The position numbers were made by a program, and so were the translations under genes. A stretch of 64,000 bases of DNA, from contig NC_056544.1 of assembly GCF_910596095.1 (NCBI RefSeq), positions 12,757,155 to 12,821,154 of the forward strand, in the 5' to 3' direction. A model generated the notes under the pieces. That model searched no databases. It was not told the origin of the DNA and saw only the letters and a list, made by a program, of their open reading frames with translations. Origin of the DNA: Thunnus maccoyii. Taxonomy: Eukaryota > Chordata > Actinopteri > Scombriformes > Scombridae. Shown here piece after piece: positions 41,101 through 64,000 of the stretch (position 1 is its first letter; each line of letters begins with the position of its first letter).

Positions 41101-44100
41101 TTAGGAGAAGATGCGGATGCACTGTGTGGTGGGGGTGTGGCAGACGGGGCACTCTGGCTCAGCTGACTGGCAGATTTGCCCAGCGCACTCCATGCAGAAC
41201 AGGTTGTGGCCACAAGGCACCAGGGCTGCTGTCACCTCACTCTCGAAACACACAAAGCAGTCCCTGTTGACCCCGGGGCTAACGCCAACCAGGCCCACGA
41301 CCCCGGGGCCGGAGCCGCCTTTCAGCCGGCTCAGCATCCCAGAGCTGAGGCCCACTCCGCTGCTGCCTCCCTCGGAGTCAGTGGGCGAGCCGCCAGGCAG
41401 GGAGGAGGCCGAGCAGGAGGAGTACCCGGTTGATGAGCCGCCGGAGCTGGAGCTGGACGCTCCGGAGAAGGAGCCGCCTCCTGCACTGCCAGACTGTAGC
41501 CAGGAGAGAGTGCTGAGGGGGTCGCTCTGGGCACGACGGGCTAACGGATGATCCAGGGGGCCCACACCCGTGTCCTGAGGCAGAGTTGGAGACAATCGTG
41601 GAGTGATGGCGCCACCACTGAGGCCGCTGCTGTTGCGACGTAGAGGCTGCTGCTGCTGGGAGGAGCCGGCCGTCTTATTGCCTGCTCCTCCGTTAACAAA
41701 AGGTGCCCAGATGTTGGAAGCACTGAACTCAAAGCCCAGTTCATCTGAGGAGGGCAGCCCTGGGGTGGAGTCGCCCCCGAAAGTGAAACCTCCTCCAGCA
41801 CTGCTGGAGCCTGTGCTAAAAGGGCTGGTGGGGCTGCCTCCCTCGTTGGTCTTGCGGGTGTTGCTGAAGCTGTCTGAGCTCATCCCGCCGTTGTGCGAGT
41901 GATAGGCGACTGAGGAAGACACCTTCCGGCCGGAGGAGTGGTGCATGGACATGGGAATAGGAGGAGGTGGGGAGGGTGGAGGAGGAGGGGGCGCAGAATG
42001 ATGGTTGGCAGCCCTGGACCACAGAGATGCCCCCAGCCCTCCGCTCAGGGCGCCTAAGCCTTCTAGACTGACGTCAGTGCCGTTAGTGTGGAAGTCGTTG
42101 TCTCCCTGCAGGTCTACAAAGGTTCCAGTTCGCAGGGTGATGTGGGTCTCGATCTCCTCTCTTGCTCGGTCCACGTTCTCGGGCATGCCGGTCACCTCAA
42201 ACACCGGGTCCTTCTCTCGACTGGGTGTCACAATGTAGGTGTGAGTCTGCTGCTGGATGCGCTTGATAGTTGCTCCCTTTGGTCCAACAACCAAACCAAC
42301 TACTCTGTAGGGAACCCTCACCTGGATCGACAACAAGAGAAATATTTTAACATCTGAAAAAACTGAACTGTAGTTTTATGAGACATTAATAAAACTAACG
42401 TTGAGAAAAACAGCATGATGACTGAGCTACAGAAGCTTAAGTACCTGTATGGTGGTCTGTCCGGGTAGGTGTGGTGGTCCAGGGAGAGAGCCTCCTCCTC
42501 CAGGTCCTCCAGCTTTGCACCGGGACGCCCGGATCATAGAGAAATGCTCCGCCGCAGAGACTATTTCACGTTTGGCCATCTCCACGTCCTCCCTACGTCC
42601 AGTCACAATGAATACTGGTTCCTCGCCTCTCACTGGAGTCTTTATATAGGTGTTTGTCTTGGCACGCAAGGCCTTGATCTTACAACCTGGAAGACGTACA
42701 AGCACACAAACATCACTTAAGATATTCAACAAAGTGCCAAAAAACTATACACACACCTAAAGATTTCCAAACACATTTACTTAAAAAACAAACACAGATC
42801 GGTGTGATTATGTCACGGACACAAACAGGAAGTGTTTTAACTGCTTTAAAGATGTACTGATTTGATGTATATAATTTTGATGTTGGTTTGGTTATTTATT
42901 TTTTGTGCAGGATGCTTTGTGCGTACTCGGGGAGGCATGCCATCTTAAACATGGCTTCTCATTGTGATCCATTGCTGTCACCCACCTGTGTTCACTCATC
43001 AATCAGGATTGGGTTACACCCGCTGCCAAGTTTATAAAATGTTAGCTTGATGTTTGTTCATCCTTTTGTACCCTGATGAAGACCTTTATGGTCGAAACTG
43101 GTCGGTTTTTTATTGCAAGTAGCCATGATTGAATAAAGGCTTTTTATCTCAATCCCAGTGTTTTTTGTTCCTGCTCCACACATGAGTGCCTGAAGTTTGT
43201 TTTTCCCTTCCATGCTTTAAAGATGTGAGGAAAACTGAATCAACACCTCTTTAAAACTGCTTCAACGACTGAGCATTACTAACCTTCATGACGAAGGGAT
43301 TTATCGCAAGGATGTTGCATTATTAGACTGTATCAGTTTTAGCTGGGCAGACCAAATAAACTGGCAACTCAGTGTTTATATAATTAAAGTGTGTTTTGAT
43401 TTGTTTACACATATGAAAAAGATACAAATTGATATACACAGAAACAACAAAAAGATGTAATGAGGTGCAAAAAACCCTTAAGGGGCTTGATCAGGGCGCT
43501 CTGATGCATTACACAATTAAAAAAAAGTAAAAAAAACATTATAAGGATGGAAAAGGTGATTGTTATATAAACAAACAGAAAACAGTTCCTATACATTTCT
43601 GAATATGCAGTTTATCACTGCTAATAAATCAGCATGCTCATGTCCAGTGTGCGCAGCTGTGTTGAATCCTCAAAAACAAAAATATACACTTCTTTTTAAA
43701 TATGGTGACTGACCATCTTAAAATAACATATCAGAAAAAAAACAAAGGGAGGATAAACGAGGAGCCTGTCTGCTTAAATATACTTGTCAGTGGCTGATGC
43801 ACTGCTCATGTTGTCAACTCATGATGCTCCAGCAGCATCGACCGAGCGGCGCTGTGTCTTTAAATATGGACGCTTCATTCCCGGCGACCAATAGGACGCG
43901 CGGAGTGTGATGTCATCCTGAGAAGCAGAAAGCATGGCTTTTTCAAACAAAGAGAACAATGCCGTATAACGCTGCCGCGGCCGCGACCACCGGAGCAAAC
44001 CCACAACACGAGTCGGTGCAAAGCGTTTAGTGTTAAAATGATAGAAAATTGGGGGAAATAAAAATGACACGTGTAACGCGGAGCGGCTACATCCGCGAGC

Positions 44101-45177
44101 ATCTGCAGACAGACAGGCAGAGCTGGGTGCAGGGCGTATCACCGCCCAGTCCCGTGTTTGTGCGCCTGCTGCCCCGTTTCAAGCCTTAAAAATCTCCTCC
44201 GCACAGCCGATAATCCTCCACTGTTATCACATATATAACTTAAGATTGTGAGTACGGTGTTTAAAGTGGCCGTTCTGCATCTGTGACACACAAAATCTGC
44301 ATATTTCGGTTCATTTCCTTTGTTTGGTGCAGGCTGCTAGACATGTCCAGACTCCCGACAATCTGCCGCTTTGTCTGACCCTCTCCCACCCCTCCCCCTC
44401 CCTCCTACTTCAACCAACACACTTTCAGTCTAAATACTGTTTTTAAAAAAAATAGATCAAGATGATGAAAATAAAGCAGGTGTGTTATTTTCAGGGAGAA
44501 GCCGCATTATGCTGGCATTAAAAAAAGATCCAAACACTGAGGAGCAGGGCACCAAGCAGCAGGCTGTGAAAGTTCAGCAGCCAGCCACCCAAACAAAGAA
44601 CAACCAGGCGGCATGCTGCCTGTGTAAGCTGGCCAAAAAAACATAAACACACAAATAAATCCTCACACACACACACACACGCACTCCAGCTCTTACCTTG
44701 TCTCCCAACTATCTCCGCCACATGTTCAGAGCTGGGGACAGGCACACACTCCGTCATGTTGACGCTTCTTTTCCTGCTGCAGAGGACGGAGCTTTGTTCC
44801 CCGTGGAGCATGGGGTGCGAGCCGGCCATGTGGTACCCGCCCGAGCCGTAGTACTCCGGGGATGGAGAGCAAGACGTCGGCGAGTCCCTGGACCCGCTGG
44901 GATGCTCCAGCATCTGTAGATCCACGTAGCCGCCTCCACTCACACCGTTACAACCCTCGGAGCCCGGAGCCGGGGTCCCGTCCAGAGGGTCCGCCACACA
45001 GTCCGCCTTCTCCAGGGCCATGAGTGACAGCTGGTCCAGGGCGAAGCGGAGCGCCTCTTGGTGGTCCTCTTCCCGGGACTCCTGGTCCGTTTCTCGGGGC
45101 AGACCGACCCCGCTGTGCTGGCTGCTGATCACCACGTCGTGGTCCATAATCTCGGGGTGGAATAAAGGGCTCGGCAT
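41101..45177 (-). CDS. mex3d: MEX-3 family RNA-binding protein, KH-KH-RING (mex3d-like, 647 aa)
   Basis: MEX-3 proteins bind mRNA 3'UTRs through two KH domains and act as RING E3 ligases in mRNA decay and translational control. Coding exons on the minus strand are 45177-44697, 42686-42445 and 42321-41101 (1944 nt, frame closed). KH1 spans residues about 145-208 with the GxxG loop GRQG (158-161). KH2 begins at residue 242 with [20 protein letters not shown] (loop GPKG). A C3HC4 RING occupies about 594-647 ([24 protein letters not shown], ending CIRIFS). The middle is Ser/Gly/Pro-rich with SPTSPFSTG, and [11 protein letters not shown] is the family's 14-3-3-type site. The start MPSPLF matches the MPSxLF start of relatives. 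The mex3d assignment over mex3b/c rests on adjacency to mbd3 and uqcr11, as in human 19p13.3, and on length (human MEX3D 651 aa). Confidence 0.92.
43040..43165 (+). repeat. SINE/LINE-like 3' tail in mex3d intron 1
   Basis: Contains CCCTGATGAAGACCTTTATG, then GGTCGAAACTGG, then GAATAAAGGCTTTTTATC. This phrase (CTGATGAAG...CGAAAC...AATAAAGG) I recognise from widely dispersed vertebrate retroposon tails. The boundaries are uncertain. Confidence 0.4.
43815..44170 (-). promoter_or_regulatory. Candidate intronic promoter of mex3d
   Basis: Read on the minus strand, a CG-rich block (including GCGGCCGC at 43977-43984) is followed by a CRE-like TGACATCA (43915-43908), a CCAAT-family box in reverse form ATTGG (43892-43888) and a TATA-like CCATATTTAAAG (43869-43858). 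The arrangement and order are those of a promoter firing toward mex3d exon 2. No start site can be proven from sequence alone. Confidence 0.35.
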
Positions 45178-46200
45178 AGTCTCTCCGTGGATCTCACATC
45201 AGATCACGGATGCCTGTTTGCTGGGAGTGAGGCTCACCCTCTTCTGAAAGGGAAAAAAATGAGTTAATACACCAAATTCAGATAGTTGTTTATGATTAAA
45301 AGAGTGGAGATGAGCAGCGATCACTCATAAACAATATCTTGCATGAACAGTGTCGGTTTGGGCGCTTTGCTTTGTCTGTTGTTGCTTCTTGTCTGACATC
45401 TGAAACCATCCGACAGGCTGCTTGTTTTGTCGGGATAAAGCTGCTTCTAAACGCCGGTCAAACACAGCATCTCCCTCCACACATAAGAAACACATTAGCG
45501 GCACTAACTTCAGTCACTCTTGTACGTGCTGGTTGAATTAGGAAAATCTGCCGGCTTTGGAAAAAAGTGGGATATACGCTGTTGTTAGCTTCAGCGAGCT
45601 AACAGGCGGCTCTCAGTCACGTTGTCGACCCCTTTGTTTGGGAGCAGCGCGGCTAGCTGCTAGCTCCGCTCCGACACTGGAGCCGGTGCTCGTTCTCAAA
45701 GCCGGCCGTGTTGATTTTTAAAATTAAACAAGCACTGAAACCACACGAACTTACTTTATGTTGCCTTTGTGTCGACGAGGTCCTCTCTCTTCGCTTGCCG
45801 CCCAGCTCTTGAGGGGGAAAAGATGAGGAGGTGGACGAGGAGGAGGAGGAGGAGGAGGAGGCAGCGCTAGTAGGAGCTAGTGAGCTAACTAGCAGGCTAA
45901 GTGGGGGGCGGAGGAGAAAAACGTTTAAAAAAGCGAAAAGAGGACACTGTTGTTTTTTTTTTTTCCTGTTTCTGGAGAGTCAACGCATGTTCCTGGGAGT
46001 GTCACTGGGTCTTCATTCTGCGCACCGTCAGGAGACCGCAGCTGAAATCCAAGACGAGCAGTTCCCTTTTTAGTTAAAAAACACACAGTGGCTGTTCTCG
46101 GCTCTGTGCTGCTGCCTGACCCCGCTCGGTCCGCCGCCTTTGTCTCGCCGAGCTCACGCCGCTCCGTCTCCCGCACACGGCACTGACGTCACCCGCGACA
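45178..46200 (-). promoter_or_regulatory. mex3d: mex3d 5'UTR, leader intron and CpG-rich promoter
   Basis: Upstream of the start codon the minus strand shows an acceptor TTCCCTTTCAG near 45244 and, about 500 nt further upstream, a donor AAA|GTAAGT near 45755. A non-coding first exon spliced to the coding exon is therefore likely. Beyond it lies a CG-rich zone with a GAG-rich run at 45837-45861 and a perfect CRE, TGACGTCA, at 46184-46191. A plus-strand frame at 45831-46073 overlaps this but is composed of the GAG run and 5'UTR. Confidence 0.5.
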
Positions 46201-48733: not shown

Positions 48734-51700
48734 CTATAATTCCTCCTTGTCCACCTGCTCAACCTTCTCCTCTACTTTGTTGGCTGCTGCGTCTGCAGCG
48801 GTGTCTTCTATATGAGCCAACATATCGGCCATAAGGGCTTCCTCGAGCCGCCTCCTCACATTCTGCACCAGGTCCTCCTGCTTCCTGCAAGACACACACA
48901 AGGAAAAAAAGTTTAGAGCTCAGGAGTTGAAAAAGAGTCGGAATAACATCTTCATAGAGAGAAATGGGTTGAACATCACATGTATAACTATAACATGTAG
49001 GGCTGTAGTCTGCTGGTCGACTGGTCGATTAGTTGGTCGATAAGCTCTCGTCCGACTAAATTCTCATTGGTCGAACAATCTCCGTGTTATTTTCATAAGG
49101 AGAAAAGTGCTACATCAACAGCTTTCCAGGAGTAATCCATTATTTCCTGCAGCGGGAGGGACAGACTAACAAATTACCTGTGAAAACAGGGGTGTAATCA
49201 CAACTTTGAACTCACCCAACTTAATGGAGACCGCTGGGTTTAACTGTACTCAAAGTTTACTGAACATACTGAACGTTTACTGAATCTGTGTTTCTCCATA
49301 ATGACACAACGAGAACCCCCGCCAGGCCAAAAAAATATTTTTTAACATTTGATTTCCGAATGAATATCCATTCATTCGGAAATCGATAGCGTTTGGGTTT
49401 CTCTGTGCAGCGCTGTTCCGGTACGTGAGTCAACCTCTGTCGTTGCCTGGGAAACCACTGGTAGTGTGGCTCCATTAAGGAGTATGGTTGCGTAGCGAGT
49501 GGGAAAGAGCGAGGGGCAGAGAGGTGACGGTGGATGTGAGCGGGGCAGAGGAAAAGGTTAGTAGTAAGTTGTCAGTCTGGCAGTAAATTTACAGCACAGA
49601 CTACAGTGTGTCAGTTAATAAATGCTAAAAAGTCATGTCTGTTGCTTCCCCAAATGCTGGAAAAGTAAAGCGGGTTAGCTCCAAAGTTAGCAACAATGGG
49701 TTAGCCTAACCTGAAGACACAAAACAGAGAAATACAGAACAGAGAAATGTGTGGCTGCCGAGTTTACTGTACACTCTGTCCCGTTACATACCGCCCGCCC
49801 GCCCCCGCGCGCGACTAATCGATTAGTTGAAGATTATGTGCGATTTTAGTTGACCATGATTTTCTTTGGTTGACTACAGCCCTAATAACATGTTCAGCTT
49901 ACTTTACTTAGTTGTTACAAATCATATATAATTTGAAAAGCACCATGTAGTACAATTTAAGCCTGTGCAGTTTGACCCCAGTGACAGTGTCTCTGCTCTT
50001 TTATCTTACTGAGCTCAACATGTTCATAGTAGCGACACAGGACGTCAGTTCAGTGGGGTTTATATGATGTGTCAGAATCTGCCACGACTCTGTTTAGTCA
50101 AACTATACAGACAATGGATGGTTAGCTAAAATTGTTAAATATAGAGCTGCAATGATTAGTCGATCGATCAACAGAAAAGTAATCATCAACTATTTTGATA
50201 ATCATTGAAGTTGTTTTTCAAGCAAAAATCCTCAATTTGATGAAGAATTGATGAAGAGTTTCTTTTCCTTGTCTTACATTATAGTACATTAAATATTTGG
50301 GGAGTTTGGACTGCTGCCCAGAAAAACACAAGACATGTAAAGACTTCACCTTGAGCTCTAGACATTTTTTTCACTGTCATTTTTCAGTGTTTTCTGATGT
50401 TTTAACTCAATTCATTAATTTAGAAAGTTATCAGATTAATCAATAATGAAAATAACTGTTAGTTGCAGCTCTAATACGGTATAAGATGTTGTGAGCAGTA
50501 ACACACACTGAACATCAGTTTGGTGTCTGACTTAAAGGAACCTCGATCCTCCGAAACAACAGTGGATAAATAATCATTCAAAACATTTTATGAGTGAATG
50601 CATTTGTTTAGTGTCCCTATAAAAACAGTACAGTTCACTGCTGGATCATAAAGTCATTTAAACAATGTAACTGCAATTGATGATGTATTAGAAACCACAG
50701 CAAATCACCGCAACACAATTTATAAAGTAAGTTTGGTGTCATTTGTATCACTAGTGCAGTGCCTGTTGAACATGTGCCTGTTCAGAACAGGCCAATTACT
50801 TTGCTGCTTCAATGTATAGAAAAATGAATACAGTTGATGTGAGGTGTGAATGAGTTTATACACCAACATGAAAGAAACTAACATCAATTATACACAGATG
50901 ATATGAACAATAAGTACTCTAATAGTAAATACATGTTCTTTTCTCATTTCAAGGAAAATAAAGGCTGCATTTAAAAATAAAGTAATGTGCATCCTAAAAT
51001 AAAGTGGATCGATCATTTTGGGTTCTTAGATCGTTCCTGTTTTCTGTGCCTTCAGTTTGGATTTGAGTGAGAATGTTTACTCAAAAGATTTGTGCTTTGT
51101 CTGTAGTGGCATTTCACAATCGCCACAGTCTCAGAGCATATGAGACAAACTGGTTTTGAACTGCCCGTGTAAGTATTTCCTCCATTTTATGTGCGTCCAT
51201 AACTTTGTATTAGTCTCTGAGCGCTTCCTGTGGAGTCACTCGTTGCTGATCTCCTAAACATGCTGCTAACGCTACGCTTTCTGTCTAGACACGGGGTCAG
51301 AGTGTCCGTTCTTGATTAAAAGCTCTGTTTTCGCTGTCTACTTTTCTCTTTTTGGAGCCCTTATCTCTGACTCGTGTCAGGTCTCAGACATGCAGGAATC
51401 ATTCAGCGGAGTCCTGAAGCTCCGCCCTGCCCCTGCCCAGAGTGTAGCAGCTCATTGAGCACTGGTTTATTCAAAGTTTATTAATATTAAACGTATCGCG
51501 TATCCAAATTGCACCAAATTCGACACTGCGCTCCTTTTGCTCCCCAGCCATACTCCTGCCAAGTGTAGAGTCGATCTGATGAACAGTTCAAGAGATACGT
51601 GAAGGACATACAGACATACAGACAGATTCCTTTAGTAGACAGATGTAGCCGAGACTGCAACTGAAATATCAGCGGAAAGAGACTGAAACTGATGTTTACT

Positions 51701-54700
51701 TTAAAAGCGCCCTGGAAATAATTGTGTTGACAAATGCTACACAGTAATGGAAAAGAGTAGGAAGTCATCAGATGTAGAAAACAGGGACTCTTCACTCTAC
51801 TCCAACTAAAACACATACAGTAGAAGCAGTGAAAACACATATACAAACTCCAAACAGATACTCAAGTTGACACATTTCAAGCTTTTTACTCTCTCAGGCA
51901 GCAGACACCTGTACACTCGATGTCCGTCTATACCAGCAACAACATTTTCAGTAGTTCAGTAACTTTAACATGATTACTTAAAAAGTATGTGCCATGTTGA
52001 ACTGCACTTTTACAATGCTATGGCTTCACATTTGACACCTTTCATTTCTTAGGAAGCATTAGTTAAAATCTCAGATAAAGCACCATATAATCAGCAAAAC
52101 ATGACTTAAAAAAGCTAAAGGCAAAAGATTTATACTATTGTTCATTCATGGCACTGTACTGTACGTGCTGTACGGCGAAGAAACTGTGAAGACAGTTGTG
52201 CATGTCTGAACGTCTCACCTGATATCATCATCCGTCACCACAAAGGCTTTGCAGAGAGGCTGTGCTGTGTTGAGCCAGACTCCGGGATTTTTCTCCACTG
52301 CAGCTGTAAGCTGTCCGGTGACAGGTGCTGGGCTGGTGTGCAGGGCGCTGGCGATGGCGGAGAGCAGTGTTTTGTCTGAACATGCAGGCCCAACACCTAA
52401 GGAGGGGAAAAACAAGGGAGGCACAGGTCAAGCTCGTAGAAAATCCTCACTTTTAAAATCATAAATGGCTGTTACATTTACGTTACGCTCACCCTGTAAG
52501 CCTTTGGGAAGATCCATGGTTTTCACCAGCTCCTCTGCAATATCAAATGCACTTAACCCGCTCAGCTTCCTCTCCCAGAACAGCTGCAGCAAAAAACAAA
52601 GAAGATGATCTTAAATAAGTTTTGAACACATTTTTCCCTAAACTGACTATGTGCATCATCATCTTATTTATAGGATATTGAACTAGGATTGAATAAAGCC
52701 TTCAGCACAAAAATTACAACAACTTGCAGGTACAGTAATTTCCTTTGACCTTCTTGCCTCAGTATAGTATTAACAATAAACTGTTTCCTATAACGCTAAA
52801 AGACATTAAAAGAGTTTAAAGAAAAAGTTTTAAAATATGAAATGTGCATTGTGGAAAATCCCCTCCCACCCTAATCTTCCTCTACCTGCCTCACTGCTTC
52901 CTGGATGGGCGGAGCCTCAGAATATATACAGGCCAGCTCACCTGTGGCAAACTTTTGAGAACAAAGAAGATGGCTGGCCTCATGTGGATTCCTCATCCCT
53001 CCAATAGTTTGTTCCGTGTATATGATATGTAAGTGTCCTTTGGTTTAAAATGCATTTATAGCAGCTTTAACAGGTTATGATTTATTTGCTGATTAGGTTT
53101 CAGTAGTGGTAAAGTTATTTCTTCATTTTCAGGTTTCTAGGTAGTAACTTTGAAGTTAAACCTGCAGTGCAGAACTTTTACATATAAATGAACGTCCGTT
53201 ACATTGAAGCCCATGCAAACGAGTTCACACAATAGTGATTAAGCCTATCACTGCCAGATAAATCCCTCTGTAATTCACAGAATATGGAGTTTTTAAATCT
53301 CATGTCAGGGGAGACATTCCCGTGCTGGCCATTTGGCCGGAATCGTGCGGCTCTTCTAGACTTTCCAAACGTCATCGGACTGAACGGATCAAATTCTGAC
53401 AGTGAAACGAGTCATTTCGTGGGGGTTGCTGAAAGAATTTATCCACCGTTTTACGGCTGCAACATTAGGATATGGCCAGTGGTGTACTGGCCGTCAGGCA
53501 TACTGGGACAAATACCAGTGGACCATCAACACATCCGTTTTTACCGGCCCTCTGTGAGCCTGTCATTCGGGGTGCACATGAAAGCTGCATGCTTGTGTCA
53601 ATCACAGCGGAGCGCCCCCCCTTCACTCTCACTGCCAGAAGGGGGAGACGCATTCCATCTTTAAATTACCTTTGCTGGATTAATATTATTGAAATTAGGA
53701 ATTATGATGTCTAGATTAATATTCTGTTATCAGATAAACCAGTTGCAGCTATTCTATAATAAAAGATTGGACTGGAACTCCTGCCTTTGCTCATCTGTCC
53801 TCACAGACAAGCCATTGAGTTGGTGATATTCCTGGAACCAGACTATCCTTAAGAGACACCAGTATTCCTTCAGGCTAAATATTCTTCATGCATGCTCTCT
53901 GCCCTGACTCACCTGTTTTGGTTGGTCCACGGCCTTCTGCGGATCTGCCTTCACCTTGTTGTTGGGGTGATTCGTTACCTTGGTCACTGGCTGCTTGAAG
54001 ATGGATGCCGTCTGTCGAACTGGTAGTGTTGTGTTTAAGTCAGGCTTGGCCTTTACAAAGGAGACAACAGCATCATTGTCTACTGCACCAAAATAAGAAA
54101 CTTTTTAGAAAATTAAATTTGTGAGAAATATTTGTACAAGTCGATACTGTTGTGCGACTCCTTTATTGTTAGTGTTGTCAGTACCAAAAAATGTACTGTT
54201 GAATCACTTAATTAATTCTATGGAAGGTGAAAGGACCAGGTAAACATAATGAACTGGAATGATTCTTGTGAGCCATGAATAATTTAAGAGAACAGTCTCA
54301 CACTGAGCCGAACAGCAGAGATAAAAAGCTGTAATTATGTCACATTTCCAAGGCAATGAATATTCCTCAGAGTACAATCAACAGTCAATCATTAAGGAAT
54401 ATCTAGGTGAGAGGTTTACCAGTGAGGAAGACATCAGGAGGCCTCTGGCAACTCTGAAGTAGCTACAGATCTCCATGATACTAGATGTGTCCGAAATCAC
54501 CTCCTATTGCTACATATTGATACTTTGTCATTTTGAGTATTTGAATTCTACGAAGAGTTTATGCATCTGCTGACCTCAAAATTCCCAAACTAGGAAATGT
54601 AGTCTTCATAACATAAACTAATTTGCTAAAAAATACAGCAATGCTTCCTGACTGTCAGTGCAAAATGTGATTACACAATGTATGACAACTCCTAAATGGC

Positions 54701-56447
54701 AGAAACCTCAATTTACTACTTTCTGGAGTAAACTATTAAGTCTTTATTATGAAGGGAATAGTGAAAGAGTAGTCAACGTGATTCACCAGGTTCAACTTTG
54801 TAGCAGAGAGGCAAAGAAGACCGTAAAAAAAAAAACCTCACATGACATCTCAGCTACTTCTTGCCACTTTTTGTTATGTGGGTGACATAAAGTGACCTAT
54901 TTGGCCTAACTTATAATACTAAACAATACTGTTAATGTATCCTGAAGTGGGTATGTCAGAGTCCAGAACTCAGTACATCCAAATTTGTTGCTGCTTGACA
55001 GAATTTGAGCAGGTTTGTAAAGATAACTATGTGAAAAATGATACAGACCTATCAACATACACAGACCTGAGGCTGTAATTACTGCCTTACGTGTCTCTAT
55101 GACATATTGACCTGAAGGGGGTAAATATTTATGCAAGCAGGAACTGTAGCTCTGTTACTCAGTGTCCAAAAAAAGCATTCATTCATTCATTCATTGTAGT
55201 CAAACAATAAAAAGATGAGGGTAGAGGTAACAGGTAGCATAGTGCTTTTTATAGACACTGTAAACTGACTTTATACTGCCCACAATCACTGGAATAACAC
55301 ATCGACAACGCCTCTTTAAAATGAATTTTTCCCTTCAAGTAGCACTCAACATTCACCAGCCTCATAAAGACCAGAACCGAGCTCAGTCTCACCCTGATTT
55401 GATGGTTGATGTCATGGGGATGCTTGTGCCTGCTGCGCTGCACTTTGGTCAGGAGCAACCGTCCAGGCCGAGAGTGGCTGGCATTCACATCTGTGTGAAG
55501 ATTGCTGCCCAAGCCACGGACTATCTGAGGCTTGTTGAGGAAGCGCTTAACAGGTACACTAGAGAGCGAGAGAGAGGGGGAAAAAAAGGACATTATCACC
55601 ACAAGATTGACCACTCCAATACCAAATGGATTCACATGGATCACATATAACTAGACCTCTTTTTGGGGGAGTCCTGAGGTCACATAACTGCATATAATCT
55701 TGAAACAAAGGATCAAAAGGTGTAGCTTGACTTGTCCCGCCCTGACAGGTGTAATGACAGGGAGTCAGGAGGTGTCAATCCAGCACCTGTACACGCCCAC
55801 ACTGTCTTTAAACAACAGGTCCAATCTACTAAATGATGTGTGAGCACCTGAGTGGATGATCCCTGTGAGCAGGAGGAGCTTTCAGGTAGATTTGTTCACT
55901 GATACAGCTTCCTGATTGCAACCCAACAGACCGGCTGTCTGTCACAGCTCGTCATTGTCCTCACAGTGAAACTCTCAGGGACCCACAATTAGATAAATCA
56001 GCTGTGAGCTACACGAGAAGAAGCATGCAGAGTTTTAACGAGATAACTGTGTTGTAGCTGTTTGTTTTTACACCAGTGTGTCTCAGCTCTGGTTTGACTG
56101 TGAAGGGCCCGACGCACCGCAAGTCAAGCGTGTGTAAACAATGAAACTTAGCTAGCTAATCAAGCTAGCAGCGATGGGACCCGTCAGTGTATCAGCGTGC
56201 CAATTAAGTGGTGCTCAAAGTTGTTATTTTCCAGTTTACGTGACAAACTCAAAACTCTCTATAGTCTACGTTCAACTAAACTTACTGTGCCTGCTGCTAG
56301 AAAGTCAACATTAGCGTAGAGCTGCTCATTTGCTGATGTCCTAACTGCAAAACGCGTGTATTCATGCGTGCGTTTCCTGCAGGGAAACTTTCATTTTAAC
56401 AACTGCTTCGACTGTAAGATTATTGAGTCCCACCTTTTCCTTTCCAT
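48734..56447 (-). CDS. mbd3: MBD3-like NuRD subunit lacking the N-terminal half of the MBD (245 aa)
   Basis: MBD3 is the methyl-CpG-binding-domain family scaffold of the NuRD remodelling/deacetylase complex. Minus-strand coding exons are 56447-56434, 55558-55393, 54050-53913, 52583-52493, 52396-52219 and 48884-48734 (738 nt, frame closed at TAG 48736-48734). Residues 61-196 match MBD2/3 closely: KPDLNTTLPVRQTASIFKQP, KVTNHPNNKVK, LFWERKLSGLSAFDIAEELV, ALHTSPAPVTGQLTAAVEKN and WLNTAQPLCKAF. Residues 197-220 form the coiled coil (KQEDLVQNVRRRLEEALMAD) that binds GATAD2. The acidic tail is short. Residues 1-60 are odd: MERK is joined directly to SVPVKRFLNKPQIVRGLG, so the first 40 or so MBD residues (the WECPALPQGW...FYYSPSG part in human) are absent and the remainder is diverged. 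It could be a paralogue rather than the sole mbd3. Confidence 0.9.
48998..49884. mobile_element. 887-bp non-autonomous hAT element with perfect 8-bp target-site duplication
   Basis: Ends TAGGGCTGTAGTC and GACTACAGCCCTA are exact inverses, flanked by identical ATAACATG (48990-48997 and 49885-49892). Subterminal GTCGACTGGTCGATTAG/CTAATCGATTAGTTGA words add further inverted symmetry. The body has no intact transposase. It contains an internal perfect 14-bp-arm hairpin at about 49353-49384. The element occupies the last intron of mbd3. Confidence 0.88.
50142..50473. repeat. 332-bp hAT-like MITE, same family as 47306-47626
   Basis: Ends TAGAGCTGCAATGATTAG and GTTAGTTGCAGCTCTA are inverted. No clear 8-bp duplication was found in the flanks, so this copy may be older or rearranged. 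It lies in the last mbd3 intron. Confidence 0.65.
51471..51631 (+). repeat. RTE-like LINE/SINE 3' tail in mbd3 intron
   Basis: Contains AAATTGCACCAAATTCGACAC, TGCTCCCCAGCCATACTCC, GATGAACAGTTCAAGAGATA and a terminal CATACAGACATACAGACAG repeat. This wording recurs at the 3' ends of teleost RTE-type retroposons in my experience; classification is inference. Confidence 0.45.
52600..53912 (-). other. mbd3 intron containing probable interspersed repeat and a 126-codon open frame
   Basis: Roughly 52840-53690 does not look like ordinary intron. It includes a plus-strand frame at 53284-53664 and a phrase (GGTGTACTGGCCGTCAGGCA, ACAAATACCAGTGG) reminiscent of dispersed fish repeats. I could not find paired termini or a known protein motif, so I record it as probable repeat without function. 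Confidence 0.35.
54051..56433 (-). other. mbd3: mbd3 introns 2 and 1 (around exon 2)
   Basis: Apart from exon 2 (55558-55393), nothing recognisable. I searched the minus strand of 55559-56433 for a missing MBD exon (a GW followed by YYSPSG-like codons) and found no candidate. The plus-strand frame 55321-55650 is the antisense shadow of exon 2. Confidence 0.5.
56434..56447 (-). CDS. mbd3: mbd3 exon 1: 14-nt coding exon (MERK + 2 nt)
   Basis: ATGGAAAGGAAAAG ends at a donor GTGGGA. Read through without splicing, the codons continue as Arg-Trp (the family's MERKRW start) but then diverge and reach TGA within about ten codons. The donor thus lies inside the ancestral AGG-TGG codons. Phase 2 here joins the single leading T of exon 2 (55558) to make a Ser codon and an unbroken frame. 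The short size makes the junction an inference, but start sequence, phase and donor all agree. Confidence 0.65.
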
Positions 56448-58345
56448 GGTCCACGGTGTCTTGGTTGGTTTAGCTTTAAGTCTGGCTTATAACATGTGTA
56501 AAAAGCCAGCGAGCTGTCTATTATTGAGCTCATGAATTTCCACCGTGTCTGGTTTGTTATCGATCCCCGAGAGGTCCCCCGTCAGGACCTTTACAACCGT
56601 AGATCACTCCGCCAGCCTCGCAGCGTCATGAGCGCCGTAATCCATCCGCTGTACACTCATGCGAACTAGTGCGAGCGTGATGCGCCAGTCCAGATCTACA
56701 CAGGGGTCCGCAGTGAAGACAGCGTGTTAGCGGAGCAGCTTCAGTCAAATATACATTTACTCAAGTGCTACATTTAAGTACAATGTTCAGGTACTTTTTA
56801 ACCTTACTTGAGTATTTCCATTTTGTGTAATTGTACTTCGCAACATTTTAAAGGAAAACATTCTACTTTTCACTCCACTAACATCAACATGACATCAACA
56901 ATTGCAACAGGACTAGATATATCATTAAATGTTGCTTATAGGTTCATTTATCATAACCTATAACACCCTCAAAGTGCCATTCTACATGAGTGATTGTGAT
57001 AATTGAAGCCCCTTCCCCTCCTTCCTTTACCCTCACTGTGCAGAGTTTGACACTAGAAGGCTGTTTTCACACTCATCTGCTGAATGTGGAAAGTGTCTCT
57101 GTTCTCACCTTAAATGTAAGTTTAGGAGGTCTACCTACAAGCACGATTTGTGACATCATAACTAGTTTGGAGCCAGTTGCTGTCCAGTACCCAACAAGTT
57201 TCATATGGGAATTTGAAGCCTCTTGTGCACATACACTGGCTTTTTAGTGAAGTGAGACATCTGGTATCCAGGAGTTAAACTTTTGAAACAAACAATATTT
57301 GCATATTCATAGATTCTGGATTTTTCAATGAGAGAAAAGGTGTAGATGTAACTAAGAATATTTCTGATATTCACAGTATATACATGTAGTATAATTTTGA
57401 CTTCAGGATAGGGGTCAGTGTAAAGTACTTTAAATTGCTTTTTGGTTGAAAGGTTATATACAAATAAACTTGCCTTGACACTGTTGCATTGCTACTTTTA
57501 CTAATTAATAACTCCAAGTTAACCTTTAGTTGCAGTTGGAAAGGTATGATGAGACTTCAGTACAAAAACATCTTTTGTGCAGAAACACAATACAAAAAAA
57601 GTAAACCTACCATTTAAAATGAAATCAAAGGACTGGAAACTGCCATCACTCCCAAACTGGTTGACTGGACTGGTGTTGAAACTCAGTGTGTTATGTTTTT
57701 AAGAATTTGTTAATATCAGTATTGTCGGTCAACACAGGAATAAAACAGCTTATAATTTTTAATGATGATATGTTGGGGCCTTTAGGGACATGCAAACAAA
57801 TCAGTAGCACAATTTTAATTTTAATTTTTTATTTTTTAAACTATGACTTAAGTGAGCTGATCCAGTGTTAAGTGAAAACAAACGGTAGCCAAACTCTGAT
57901 GTTGCTGCATACAGGATGAACACACACTTCAGTTCAACTTGACCCAATCTTGAGAGCAGGAAGACAAAACAATTGAAATTGAAATAATTACACATGACCA
58001 CAGTATAGGATAAATCTCATACTTTACTTCTCTTCAAAACAATTACAGGATGACATTAAGGACAGATTTATCCACTTGTGAATCAAGTTTGATTCACAGC
58101 ACACAGGAGACTGATGATTAAAATAAATACCTGACCTCAAACTAAGCAGGAAATGAAAACAAAAGTCCATCCTTTGTTCTCACATTCCTTCCCTTCACGT
58201 TGTCACTGGTTGAGGACATATGAAATGCCAAACCGCAGTGCACTTCAGAGGATGTTGATGGTGAACAGTTCAATAATGTCGACTGAGCTGCAGGATGAAG
58301 ATGACGGGCTCCGGCGGCCTGGCATGCAGTTGGACCACAGTGCAA
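56448..58345. other. mbd3 5' region and spacer to uqcr11
   Basis: Sequence immediately upstream of mbd3 (to about 56700) is moderately CG-bearing and presumably contains its promoter, but no single motif is decisive. Beyond it lie the repeat at 56755-56890 and a possible further repeat at about 56900-57290. The remainder, to the uqcr11 3' end, is AT-rich with nothing recognisable. Confidence 0.4.
56755..56890 (-). repeat. Partial copy of the 133-780 repeat family, inverted
   Basis: On the minus strand it reads TAGTGGAGTG, GAAGTA-like words, AAAATGGAAATACTCAAGTA and AAGTACCTGAAC, in the same order as 640-780. It lies just upstream of mbd3. Confidence 0.6.
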
Positions 58346-58349
58346 AGTA

Positions 58350-60063
58350 CCGGCTGCAGTAGTTCTGGTTTATTATTTCAGTGTTTGTTCAAAAATAATC
58401 CAACACCGCCCTGACGGGAGGAAACAAAAAGTCATCACATTGTGCAACAGTGGAGGAAAACATAGATAAGATTGTAAAGTTAACTTTAAGAGACATGAGT
58501 GACTCAGTTGTAACGGAATATTTGTTCATTTCTTATTTTAACTGTAGACCTTTGATAAGCACTATCAAAAGTTAAACCCCAAATAAAAACACTTCTCAGA
58601 AGCCCAAAACTGATTTGTGACTTAAAAAGTCTCATGTTAAATAACTGCAGAGTGGTTCAAGGCTTTTCAGGCATTTCTGTCTTATGAGAAGCTCATACAT
58701 ATAGCTTTAAAATACACCACTGTCCTGGATTCTGGTCTCCTGACGCCTCTAAACTGCCTGGTTTATTGTCTCTGAATCTCACTCTGTTTATCCTTTCATG
58801 TCCAGTCAGTTTTCCTCCTCGCTGCACATTAAGTGTTACCATCACGCTTCACTAAAAGAACGGTATTATCCAGGTGATGTTGTGCACCTTTTTTGCCAGA
58901 ACTGGTGCGTGGCATTCAAATAAAAGCATTTAATTTTTGTGTCAGACCAAATGATCTTAACATTTTCACACTGATGGTGAATGATGAGATTCTAGAAATG
59001 TTCAGTGTTATTCTGTTACACAGATCAGTGTTTACACACCTAACCTGAATAAGGCAAAATGACCAGTTTGTAATGTTTTATCAGAGGATATCTTACAGTT
59101 TCCATACAGTGAGTACACTCAAATGTGATAGAGACACAGGGTGTCACACTACAAGACAATTTACACATGGATGATACATGCTTTGGGAATTTTACATTTC
59201 ATTTCATTACAGTGATGCGCGTCATAACTGTGGAGGTGGTTACTCTGGTAAATGTCCTGCTTGGGAAATTAGTAATATTCACACATCTTTTCTTCATTAC
59301 AATTGCATTTTACACAGAAGTAGCAACACAAAGAGAAGAGCATACACAAGGTTATCACTTTCTTTGACTCTCAGCAAAACATCTAATGAAGAACTATATA
59401 ATCAGAATAAATGACCTTGGCCACGTTGATGGAAATAAAGGAATATGTCACCTAATGCAACAACGTGGCTGTTTTATGTGTTTTCAATTATTTTTGGACA
59501 ACAGTGGATTTCTATGGGATGGAGGCATTAGCTAGTGTATCAGGCTGTGGCTACACAGACAATACTTGTTACTGTTGAGGGATAAATAGCTCCACCCGCT
59601 GATACCTGTTGTCGCCATTTGAGCAGAAGAAATATACACATATGCACAATTAACTGCAAAATAAGTTTTGAAAACCCGTTGTGTAGAAAATCTATGTAAG
59701 AATGCTGCTCTTCATTCATGTTCTCATTTTAGTACTCGCCTCCAGTGCTGCCACCATAGTTGGCAGGAAAAAAATGATACCTATGTCCAACAATCCTGTT
59801 GTATGATAACAAACAACATGGATTTTTTTTATGTCTTCTGTTTAATTAGTTAAATTCACCGACTTACACACCCAGCAATGCTGCAGACTGCATGTCTGAA
59901 AAAAACAAAACAAAACTGTAGGCTCGTGTGTAGTTTTCTATGTCATGTTCAACCCTGTGAATTTGCCATGTTGACTTCAGTCAGGTTGTACAAACATGTC
60001 AAGGTGAGTAAAGTGAGGCACGATAACCATGTTTGTGTATAAAAGTTTGCTTTTAATGCACGA

Positions 60064-60520: not shown

Positions 60521-61619
60521 TTATTCGTCCTTCTTGAATTTGCCGCTGATGTAGGGAACGTAATCCAAAACCAATCGCCAGTCTGTGAAGTGGACCAGAG
60601 CTACACCTCCGACTGTGCCCCAGACAGCCATGGTTGGGACCCTGAGAAGTAGAACACGTTCAAGATTTACCAGGTTTTCTTCCATTTAAAGCGGAAGAAA
60701 GAAAAACACAAACCTTGAAACTAGTCAGGGTCAAGCTAATAAGGTTTTTTGTTTGATACAGTTTCAGTTGTTTAGTCTGTGGCTGAAAATGATTCTCATT
60801 GGTATTATAAATATTATACACTTAAGCAACAAACATTAAGCCCCTATTGAGTAGCACAAAAGAAAGGTGATCAATCTGTTGAGTAATAACTAACAAAAAT
60901 GAGCAGTAGTTGATTTACTAATCTATTGTGTAAAAATGATTGCTTTTATTCAATTTCTTATCTATCAACCTGTCTGACTAAGTACACATTTAAAACACAT
61001 TAATATGACATACCTGACTCTTGTTGTCTAAATGGGTGCATTAATTTATGTGTGTAAATGCGACAAAGTTTATCTATCATGTTTGTTGTGTGTCTGTACG
61101 TTTGTGTGTGGGGTATGAAAACAATCCACCCTTTGGGACAATAAAGACTATCTAAATGATTAATAGAGTAATCTAATTATTTATTTGTCAAAATTGTTAA
61201 AAAATCGACAGTTCCAATCCCACAACTAAGATCAGTCACCTTTATTGATTAGGCTAAATATGTCCTCCACAAACTGGGTGATAGAAGGTATAAAAATCAC
61301 ACTTTAGCTGCGGTAACGGGAGAAAAGACATCGCAAAACAGTTGTCATAGAATACGTTAAAGAAAATCATATTTTTACTCAAAAAATGACATTTTAGTCA
61401 TGTTTTGACCCGAGTTTAGCTGTTAGGTAAAGGCAGCATGTCCCCACAGCAATGACCTCAGTTAAGCTAAAAGCTAACGTTAGCTAAAGACACATCAAGG
61501 TTTTGAATATCAAAGTATTGACTTCTTTCTGTTTTTTTCCCACTTCTACAATACGAAAAAACGTCTTACCATGACTTGACAATGGCCACATACTTCTGGC
61601 CGATCACTTTACTTATCAT
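60521..61619 (-). CDS. uqcr11: Cytochrome b-c1 complex subunit 10 (UQCR11), 56 aa
   Basis: UQCR11 is a small single-span subunit of mitochondrial complex III (ubiquinol-cytochrome c reductase) in the inner membrane. Two coding exons on the minus strand, 61619-61570 and 60641-60521, give 171 nt and 56 residues, the same length as human. The N-terminus is MISKVIGQKYVAIVKSW; exon 2 gives a hydrophobic span (TMAVWGTVGGVALV), then the hallmark TDWRLVLDYVPYISGKFKKDE. The intron splits the Trp codon (TG/G) as a clean GT-AG. It lies upstream of mbd3 on the same strand, as in human MEX3D-MBD3-UQCR11. Confidence 0.96.
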
Positions 61620-61739: not shown

Positions 61740-64000
61740 CCTAAAAACAATAAAAGCATAGAGCTGCATTCCTGAAGAGCATTATTACTGCCTTTTTCTT
61801 TTCAGTATTTTAGTTTACGCAGGGCTTACATTGTGCATATTCCTAAATAAATGCGTTTTTAATCAAATTACCAAAAATTAATGGCACACCTGGAGACAGG
61901 TAGACTTTGTCTCTGAAGCTCTGGCAACACATATGAACATCTAATGAAGCTGCTGAGTGTAAATTACCGCGCACACTTTACCTGATGGGCTACAGTACAG
62001 CTCATTTCTGCCCCCTAGCGTTTTATTCGAGCTATAGTGAGCTGAGATGTTAATCACAGTGGGGGTCACAGAGCTGGGCAGGGAGCAGCAAACACATAAC
62101 TGCATCTAATGGGATCACAAGTATAAATACATGTGTGGGACAGTGAGACACTTTTATTTTCCGTTGTCGACTTATATTATGTTAGAAGTGTTTGGCAGAA
62201 ACTGGTTGCCTAACAACAAGCAGCTGTTGTATTTTCTTTGAATTTTGAACATTACTTTGTATCATTTATGTGATTATACATGGATTTGCCAAACCAGTTT
62301 GTATCTTGTCACCAAATGCTCTTACTGGTATTGCAGTGTTGGTTTCAGCCAGATTAGCCACAGTTATGTAGGTACATTTGTGCTAACGCTGCACAGATGT
62401 CTGTGTTGTGGTGGATGCCTGGAAAATGTAAAGTAACCGCATGTTTTCTTGTGGGTTTTTCACTCATAAAAAGCTCAACTATTAAAACATGACTCATAAG
62501 CAAAAGCTCTTGAAAAAGCCATATTGTTGGTTTGTCTATGAAATCATCTCCACCTGCTTGGTCTTTCCAGTTGTTCAGGGGCAAATTACAGCTGGATAAC
62601 CTATATTTCACAAAAATACAGGTATATTGAGTTGTTTCTCTTCCATCAATCTGCATTGCAGAAAAGAAAATGTAATAATGTGTTTTACCTTTTTCACATT
62701 TGAGTTAAAAAAAAAGACAGATAAAGGTGAATTTTGTTATTAAAAATGGCACATTTATTGCTACATTACTGTTATATACACAACAGTTCTCAATATCTAC
62801 TTTATATATAAAAAATAGGAAACTGGAGGCACTTTGAGGACATAGCCTACATAGATATTGTCCCCAAACATGAGTGAAGACAGTGAGATCTGTAGCACAT
62901 CGTTTGTTATGGAGGAAAGAAAGCATCTGCTGACAAAGAAAATCCGGTGCATGTTTTCATACTTGGATACTGTAGACATATCTTTCATGTAAAGAAATAA
63001 AAGTCTTTAGTAGTGATTTTCTATATCACACCAAGACCACGTTTTTTTTTGCCGAAAGATAACTGACAAAGAAAATAATGTTTGGGGCTTGTCCATGGGG
63101 CAAGGTAAACCAAATACTGTTACTTATCAGCTGATAAGGACATATCATACAGCTGTACATACATATCAATGCACATGCCAGTCAAGGACAAAAATATATT
63201 TAAAAAAAAAAAAATCAGTAAATAAAAAAAAGTTTTAAGTAGTTTTCAGTGTCAAAGTTGTAGACCAGGTTATTAGTCAGCTTACATGTAATAACACACT
63301 GAAGCAGTCAATGAGTGTAATTCTTCATCCAGATGTTTTGAGACACTGTCAGATGTTACTGAAGTATATATTTGTTTATACGTCTGTATTATAAAAAGGT
63401 ACAACCTATAAATCCTCAAATGCAACATCATCCACCATGTAGCAGAGAAGTATTCAGGCACTGGTGAGTAACCATTATCAAAACTCCCAAAGTCAGGAAA
63501 ATGACTAAGGCCACCCTTTTTGATTCATTTTATGCTTTATATCATAATGAAACTGAATTATGTTGCGGATTGTGCAGACCGCCCCTTCTGCCCCGACCTC
63601 AAACTAATCAATAAGCTCATCAGAGAGCAGGTATTGGGGAGAAGAGAGGGGGGTGCACCGAAGAAAGAATATTGTTTCATTATAAGAAAAACTGAAGCAA
63701 ACACCAGAACAATCCAATTACAACTGGCCTGACAAGTTTGTGTTGAAACAGGTATTGTTTTTTTTGTTTTTCTTTTGTTTTGTTTTTTTTTTTTAAAAAA
63801 AGGGCAATATCACAACATGTGATGTTACAGCCAGGCAGTTTGTCATTTCTAACATTTCCAAGCACCTGGCACAACAGAAAACACCTCACTTTGTTCCTGG
63901 AATCTAAATTGAGAGTTGTCTTACATTTAAACAATGTAAACGAAAAAAGAAAGAGCATTCCAAATGGAAAAAAAAAACTAACTCATACAACTATCTTACA
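61740..64000. other. AT-rich sequence beyond uqcr11, possibly the 3'UTR of the next minus-strand gene
   Basis: No protein or RNA gene was recognised. A minus-strand AATAAA is at 62759-62754, and the sequence above it is AT-rich and free of long convincing frames, as in a long 3'UTR. If synteny with human 19p13.3 continues, the next gene is TCF3 on the same strand. Nothing here reads as TCF3 coding sequence, so this stays an inference. Confidence 0.3.

Follow-up and report, generated by a model that had tools for sequence, protein, structure and literature searches.

A Thunnus maccoyii mbd3 duplicate with a truncated methyl-CpG-binding domain as a candidate methyl-blind NuRD linker

An mbd3 gene in a 64,000-nucleotide stretch of the Thunnus maccoyii genome (the window, on contig C12) carries coding sequence for only a part of its methyl-CpG-binding domain (MBD), which raises the questions of how that domain was lost and what such a protein could still do in NuRD. 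The gene lies on the minus strand at 56447-48734. The rebuilt gene model, known here from the genomic sequence of this one species, comprises six exons with every intron GT-AG and one open frame of 245 aa. It confirmed a proposal of the first-pass annotation, that a 14-nt exon 1 (MERK) joins in phase to exon 2, and gives the predicted N terminus MERK/SVPVKRF (the slash marks the exon junction). The start of exon 2 had to be corrected: 55558 is its first base, and 55560-55559 is the acceptor AG. The features of the locus are as follows.

56434..56447, minus strand: coding part of exon 1, ATGGAAAGGAAAAG, giving MERK plus 2 nt, with a Kozak-like ACCATGG
56427..56433, minus strand: first 7 nt of intron 1, GTGGGAC, now the donor and once R-W-D codons of the MBD (coding GTGGGAT on C7)
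55559..56433, minus strand: intron 1, in which an MBD-coding exon was not found by tblastn, read-through or shuffles
55393..55558, minus strand: exon 2, decayed second MBD half (aa 5-46) and diverged link (aa 47-60) into MBDa
53913..54050, minus strand: exon 3, MBDa, the p55-binding region (profile match)
52493..52583, minus strand: exon 4, with the site equivalent to the HDAC-core contact (MBD2 R286/L287 = K112/L113)
52219..52396, minus strand: exon 5, MBD_C (profile match)
48734..48884, minus strand: exon 6, GATAD2-binding coiled coil (PDB 2l2l match), C-terminal tail and stop
56100..56699, no strand: CpG-rich stretch round exon 1, putative promoter (CpG observed/expected)
60524..60685, minus strand: stop-to-stop segment with a uqcr11 exon, in the duplicated synteny block (PF08997, 73.1 bits)

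Exon 1 falls inside two CpG-rich bins (observed/expected 0.94 and 0.96 at 56100-56699). No other of the 17 bins that span 54000-59099 exceeds 0.55 (window mean, 0.45), which is the pattern expected for a putative promoter. Scored with a rough matrix, the exon 1 donor was the lowest of the gene's five (4.16), near those of exon 2 (4.40) and exon 4 (4.50); the next four GTs scored -7 to -9.

In alignment with human MBD3 (residues 1-71 verified against PDB chains), S5 of the window protein corresponds to S37, and human residues 5-36 are absent. Loss of the first part of the MBD, as originally described, was therefore upheld, although its size is 32 residues and not about 40. The MBD profile PF01429 did not match the complete 245-aa protein at E up to 10, nor aa 1-60 at E up to 1, whereas human MBD3 37-112 and a predicted short form of the C7 gene described below scored 26.8 and 31.8, respectively (cut-off, 21). 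The remnant in exon 2 was detectable by pairwise comparison only, scoring 26.2 bits against human MBD3, a value reached by 0 of 100 random windows. Both CpG-contact arginines of the MBD are gone: one falls in the missing stretch, and the other, at the MBD2 R188 position, is a leucine (L12) in the window protein.

As for membership of the MBD2/MBD3 family, MBD_C (114.7 bits) and MBDa (96.4 bits) were present (cut-offs, 27), the GATAD2-binding coiled coil was present by sequence (PDB 2l2l_B, E 5.8e-10; 25 of 34 residues shared with MBD2), and the MBD was absent. These matches agree with the earlier view that the NuRD-docking parts are intact. At the HDAC-core contact, the residue corresponding to MBD2 R286 is a lysine. 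Published MBD2 changes R286E and L287A were without effect singly, and only the double change had an effect; the replacement by lysine is probably harmless.

An intact duplicate partner had also been suggested, and the check for a second mbd3 locus found one. Scoring of five candidates with the MBD_C profile in the fish's own genome (782 Mb) gave three matches: exon 5 of the window gene, an intact mbd3 on contig C7, and mbd2 on contig C19. The MBD of the C7 gene is complete (79.2 bits). Because unc13-like, mbd3 and uqcr11 occur in identical order and orientation on C12 and C7 (uqcr11 counterpart at 12337268-12337381 on C7), the two segments are duplicates, and the underlying event is most likely the teleost genome duplication. 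Exons 3, 4 and 5 share 42/46, 26/30 and 53/60 aa with the C7 paralogue (121/136 together), and tblastn sets them closer to C7 mbd3 than to C19 mbd2. From this identity, the tblastn result and the common neighbors, the window gene is mbd3 rather than mbd2. In exon 6, aa 197-222 are identical at 21 of 26 positions and the tail at 6 of 22 aligned positions. C7 mbd3 carries K30 and Y34, and its product is predicted to be methyl binding, of the K30/Y34 type. No relative was found in viral contigs.

Judged indirectly, from its neighborhood, the window gene is most likely mbd3a. According to a table in PMC3276181, tilapia "MBD3b" lies on LG23 between QCR10 and MYO5b-UNC13A. On C7, unc13 and mbd3 are separated by myosin-V-like exons (with two IQ motifs by pattern, a P-loop by eye); no window segment matched this stretch (12309139-12328828), in whose place the window has a mex3-like gene. 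Since these exons are present on C7 and none was matched in the window, C7 fits tilapia MBD3b, and the remaining duplicate would be the counterpart of the window gene. A motif scan of the window also detected no myosin motif, with a P-loop pattern that would miss the C7 gene too. A zebrafish morpholino target quoted in PMC6759317 is matched by the window at 17 of 18 bases, which is not decisive because the C7 start also differs at one base by eye.

The C7 MBD exon contains the donor AAAAG/GTGGGA in the same phase as the exon 1 donor of the window gene. The seven nucleotides GTGGGAC in the window and GTGGGAT in C7 coding sequence are identical at six positions and represent the same codons. At the sequence level, the window donor lies within Arg-Trp codons (phase 2) and connects to the exon 2 serine codon; the intact codons seen in C7 substantiate the initial proposal that it arose inside ancestral AGG-TGG codons. 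With the same rough matrix, the internal donor of C7 scored 4.16 and its distal donor -2.02, and use of the former would yield MEKK/SPSGKKF. The distal donor appears to be gone from the window gene, leaving the internal donor alone.

The first-pass annotation had overlooked this donor in the C7 duplicate, as well as the resemblance of the layout to the mammalian isoform MBD3B. In MBD3B, as in the window gene, MERK runs directly into the serine that precedes the second MBD half, and MBDa, MBD_C and the coiled coil are kept. The short form predicted for C7 would have this layout too. Human and mouse MBD3B presumably lack exactly residues 5-36. The difference is that the short form is the only product the window sequence appears able to encode and that its remaining MBD half has decayed, with loss of the second CpG-contact arginine. 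MBD3B is described in the literature as having a truncated MBD, as a "short form," and as the most abundant MBD3 isoform in mouse ES cells.

We consider it probable (roughly 0.74) that the window gene is a duplicate that, after the genome duplication, was confined to an MBD3B-like product, a NuRD linker blind to DNA. Exon 1 of the ancestor probably offered two usable donors, both still present in C7: use of the distal one includes the MBD, and use of the internal one, within the Arg-Trp codons, skips it. The window gene would then have lost the distal donor together with the coding sequence preceding it, which leaves the short form as its sole possible product. If spliced and expressed as predicted, its protein should bind the HDAC/RbAp core via MBDa and GATAD2-CHD4 via the coiled coil, should not read CpG, and would serve as a methyl-blind linker in NuRD alongside intact Mbd3 from C7. 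A competing role, also put forward in the first-pass annotation, is likewise a prediction.

A similar set of parts retained and lost is seen in mammalian MBD3L2, and the window protein could be an antagonist of that kind, displacing MBD2 or Mbd3 in NuRD and drawing the complex off methylated targets, thereby relieving silencing. This appears unlikely, as Mbd3-null mouse ES cells can differentiate again when given MBD3 without the entire MBD (PMC10310694). Furthermore, the 121/136 identity to the intact paralogue is more consistent with a working linker. We take the MBD3L family to be defined by a locus apart from the MBD3 neighborhood and by absence of an MBD remnant; the window gene shares its mbd3 neighborhood with C7 and has such a remnant. 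Like the window protein, mammalian MBD3L1-5 have no MBD, and they can enter NuRD (PMC5849414). Unlike them, the window gene retains the exon structure and neighbors of intact mbd3 and a recognizable remnant, and the two would be of separate origin.

Sequence change in the MBD remnant is one-sided. In aa 5-46, 16 changes fall on the window branch and 1 on the C7 branch (p 0.0003), in keeping with the divergence noted previously for the remaining MBD half, while exons 3-5 have 5 and 4, respectively. As a point against the proposed reading, rapid change extends beyond the MBD: the aa 47-60 link was also altered mainly on the window branch (6 versus 1, p 0.125; dN 0.39), and divergence is seen in the C-terminal tail too. 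Between the duplicates, dN was 0.58 in the remnant and 0.06-0.07 in aa 61-222, and dS was saturated (2.0-2.7), which makes dN/dS rough. Also against the proposal, dN/dS in the remnant was ~0.3 (dS saturated) and not 1, so the remnant may retain some function.

It is very improbable that the MBD is supplied by an unrecognized exon or is absent through an assembly fault. The window contains no N, and an assembly fault would not produce the decay seen in the remnant. The check for an MBD-encoding exon elsewhere in the gene found none in intron 1: tblastn gave short stretches only (best 15.4 bits, MERKRWD itself aside), and translation continued beyond the exon 1 donor hits a stop at codon 19, and an MBD exon there was rejected. 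A leftover of the lost exon past the first 7 nt was rejected as well, since local alignment of intron 1 with the C7 exon 1 portion that the window gene lost was at chance level (205 of 500 shuffles equally good). The best similarity in the window, at 62030-61977 (20.4 bits), was equaled by 10 of 100 random windows and lies outside the exon 1-2 interval. Genome-wide, the MBD profile gave 11 matches from 17 candidates scored, 0 of them on C12. Just as improbable is a decaying duplicate becoming a pseudogene: the MBD is gone and its remnant degraded, but every splice site and the frame are intact, dN/dS is ~0.02-0.03 over aa 61-222 (dS beyond 2), and exon 1 lies in a CpG-rich stretch.

The coexistence of methyl-blind and methyl-reading NuRD linkers, as proposed for the C12/C7 pair, is known from human MBD3 and MBD2. 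In mammalian MBD3, selectivity was lost via the substitutions K30H and Y34F (PMC6759317), whereas in the fish the loss would have come via truncation of one mbd3 duplicate, the other retaining K30 and Y34. Drosophila MBD2/3 is reported not to bind DNA and belongs to a family that retains the coiled coil (PMC5240623); it has a 20-residue insertion in the MBD, in an animal without DNMT1/DNMT3. In contrast, the window gene has a truncated exon, in a vertebrate with an intact duplicate.

In the open-licence literature sampled, a fish mbd3 without an MBD was not found described, and one may be known elsewhere (subscription papers, sequence databases). The pair may, tentatively, represent a splice isoform turned gene, in which one mbd3 copy fixed the methyl-blind short form and the other the methyl-reading form, such that truncation rebuilt the division that mammals reached by point substitution. 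It is a clean candidate for the partition of isoforms between duplicates. Engineered mouse cells have served to test how much DNA binding by MBD3 itself matters for NuRD; the window mbd3 and its intact duplicate in one genome would constitute a natural experiment on the need for it.

No match to the Pfam MBD profile was found in the protein encoded by the window mbd3 gene, which scored well over the Pfam cut-offs for MBDa and MBD_C; likewise, residues 1 to 60 gave no match to the MBD profile at E values up to 1. By the same profile, human MBD3 from S37, the part that a protein like MBD3B (the short mammalian splice isoform) retains, passed the cut-off (26.8 versus 21), as did the short form of the intact mbd3 duplicate on contig C7 (31.8 versus 21). 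A remnant of the second MBD half (aa 5 to 46) is clearly present, because its pairwise match to human MBD3 (26.2 bits) was equalled in 0 of 100 random windows. The remnant was identical to MBD2 at 14 of 40 residues, where human MBD3 37-76 has 32 of 40. Beyond it, identity to MBD2 was 2/14 over the next 14 residues and 46/58, 48/66, and 26/38 over the remainder. The CpG-contact arginines, which we take to be R166 and R188 of MBD2, are both absent: the first falls inside the stretch missing from the window protein and the second is a leucine. Two conserved arginines are described as the basis of CpG recognition by MBDs in PMC5240623. The observation of the first-pass annotation, an mbd3 gene whose MBD is partly missing and otherwise diverged, was confirmed and strengthened.

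The rebuilt gene model has six exons and 245 codons on the minus strand, with GT-AG splice sites. The coding part of exon 1 is 14 nt (MERK plus two bases), joined to exon 2 in phase 2; the exon 2 coordinate annotated earlier was wrong by one. Exon lengths were 14, 166, 138, 91, 178, and 151 in the window and 110, 160, 138, 91, 178, and 148 on C7. The ATG has Kozak-like surroundings, and the mbd3 start lies in the only 2 CpG-rich bins of 17 neighboring ones (CpG observed/expected, 0.94 and 0.96; window, 0.45). An upstream ATG at 56533 (frame MSSIIDSSLAFYTCY...) overlaps the start in a different frame and could reduce mbd3 translation if within the 5' UTR. An MBD-restoring exon between exons 1 and 2 was sought by tblastn with the MBD as query and by read-through, and none was found: apart from MERKRWD, the tblastn matches in intron 1 were short and scored ≤15.4 bits, and translation continued beyond the exon 1 donor ends in a stop at codon 19. 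Within the first 60 nt there are four further GTs, all scoring far lower than the donor used (rough donor matrix). Elsewhere in the window, the best match to the missing MBD half (20.4 bits) was equalled by 10 of 100 random windows.

Profile searches covered the species' own genome (782,140,779 bases, 54 contigs; window, C12:12757155-12821154); counts are lower bounds, and only the best candidates were scored. MBD_C (PF14048) gave at least three matches, on C7, C12 (exon 5 of window mbd3), and C19. MBD (PF01429) gave at least 11, including C7 and C19, where the MBD is spread over two exons and the break falls at one shared position of the profile; none of the matches listed was on C12. The C19 gene is mbd2-like. 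The C7 gene is mbd3 in intact form, encoding 274 aa (MBD, 79.2 bits). Its protein carries K30 and Y34, which lower-vertebrate Mbd3, binding methylated DNA, is reported to keep (PMC6759317).

Window segments were also searched against 120 kb of C7. Unc13-like exons (plus strand; labeled from a C1 domain and the tilapia map), mbd3 (minus), and uqcr11 (minus) had equal order and orientation in both. The segments differ between unc13 and mbd3, where the window has the following gene:

41101-45198, mex3-like gene, with KH and RING domains in the 41101-42375 frame

This gene was unmatched in the 120 kb around C7 mbd3. In its place C7 has myosin-V-like exons, and the tilapia LG23 table places a myosin-V gene there, as on C7 (PMC3276181). 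The C12 and C7 segments are duplicates that underwent different losses, and the duplication behind them was presumably the teleost one. Two further stretches shared with C7 were also observed. The first, a piece of about 320 bp that lies upstream of mbd3 (window 57033-57348), is 74.5% identical to C7 12335611-12335920, inverted, and 61 bp of it are 87% identical to sequence in the mbd2 region on C19; a dispersed repeat is the more probable identity, not a conserved regulatory element. The second, window 62723-62817, is 87.6% identical over about 97 bp to C7 12339969-12340065, upstream of uqcr11 in both segments, and is a candidate conserved noncoding element or unrecognized exon retained by both duplicates.

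At the internal donor, a GT inside the Arg-Trp codons, exon 1 reads ATGGAGAAGAAAAG|GTGGGATTGC on C7 and ATGGAAAGGAAAAG|GTGGGACTCA in the window, with identical donor hexamer and phase. Its use on C7 would join the exons in frame as MEKKSPSGKKF. At this offset mbd2 has GAAGACGGA, with no GT. Beyond 7 nt, the window intron resembled the C7 exon sequence that the window gene has lost no more than expected by chance. By a rough donor matrix, the internal donor scored 4.16 and the C7 distal donor, which includes the MBD, -2.02. The distal donors of intact mbd3 (GTACTA; exon L011 6119-6228) and mbd2 (GTACTC; exon L009 3356-3465) are both weak by this matrix, so short-form splicing of the C7 MBD exon may be frequent too. 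In the simplest history, the internal donor would have arisen as an alternative site before the distal donor was lost from the window gene, an order that we infer. Judged from its sequence, window mbd3 is a duplicate fixed in a known splice-isoform layout.

Branch-specific changes, with C19 mbd2 as the outgroup, numbered 16 window-only versus 1 C7-only in aa 5 to 46 (P = 0.0003), 6 versus 1 in aa 47 to 60 (P = 0.125), and 5 versus 4 in exons 3 to 5. Between window and C7, dN was 0.58 for the remnant, 0.39 for aa 47 to 60, and 0.06 to 0.07 for aa 61 to 222; dS, where computable, was saturated at 2.0 to 2.7. As window-side changes and high dN mark the remnant and dN is low in aa 61 to 222, the gene is maintained and its MBD is not. 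With a dN/dS near 0.3, at saturated dS, the remnant may still be of some use. The C-terminal tail (aa 223 to 245; window 48734-48805) has diverged from C7, with 6 of 22 aligned residues identical.

The window protein is identical at 10 of the 11 MBD2 residues reported in PMC4381075 as tested for HDAC-core binding, R286 being replaced by K. The main rival reading is that it would act as an antagonist like the MBD3L2 described in PMC5849414. In mouse, MBD3B is reported as the most abundant isoform in embryonic stem cells (PMC4082719, PMC4260518), and differentiation as rescued by MBD3 without its MBD (PMC10310694). Because of this precedent, the window protein most likely serves as a working, methyl-blind NuRD linker.
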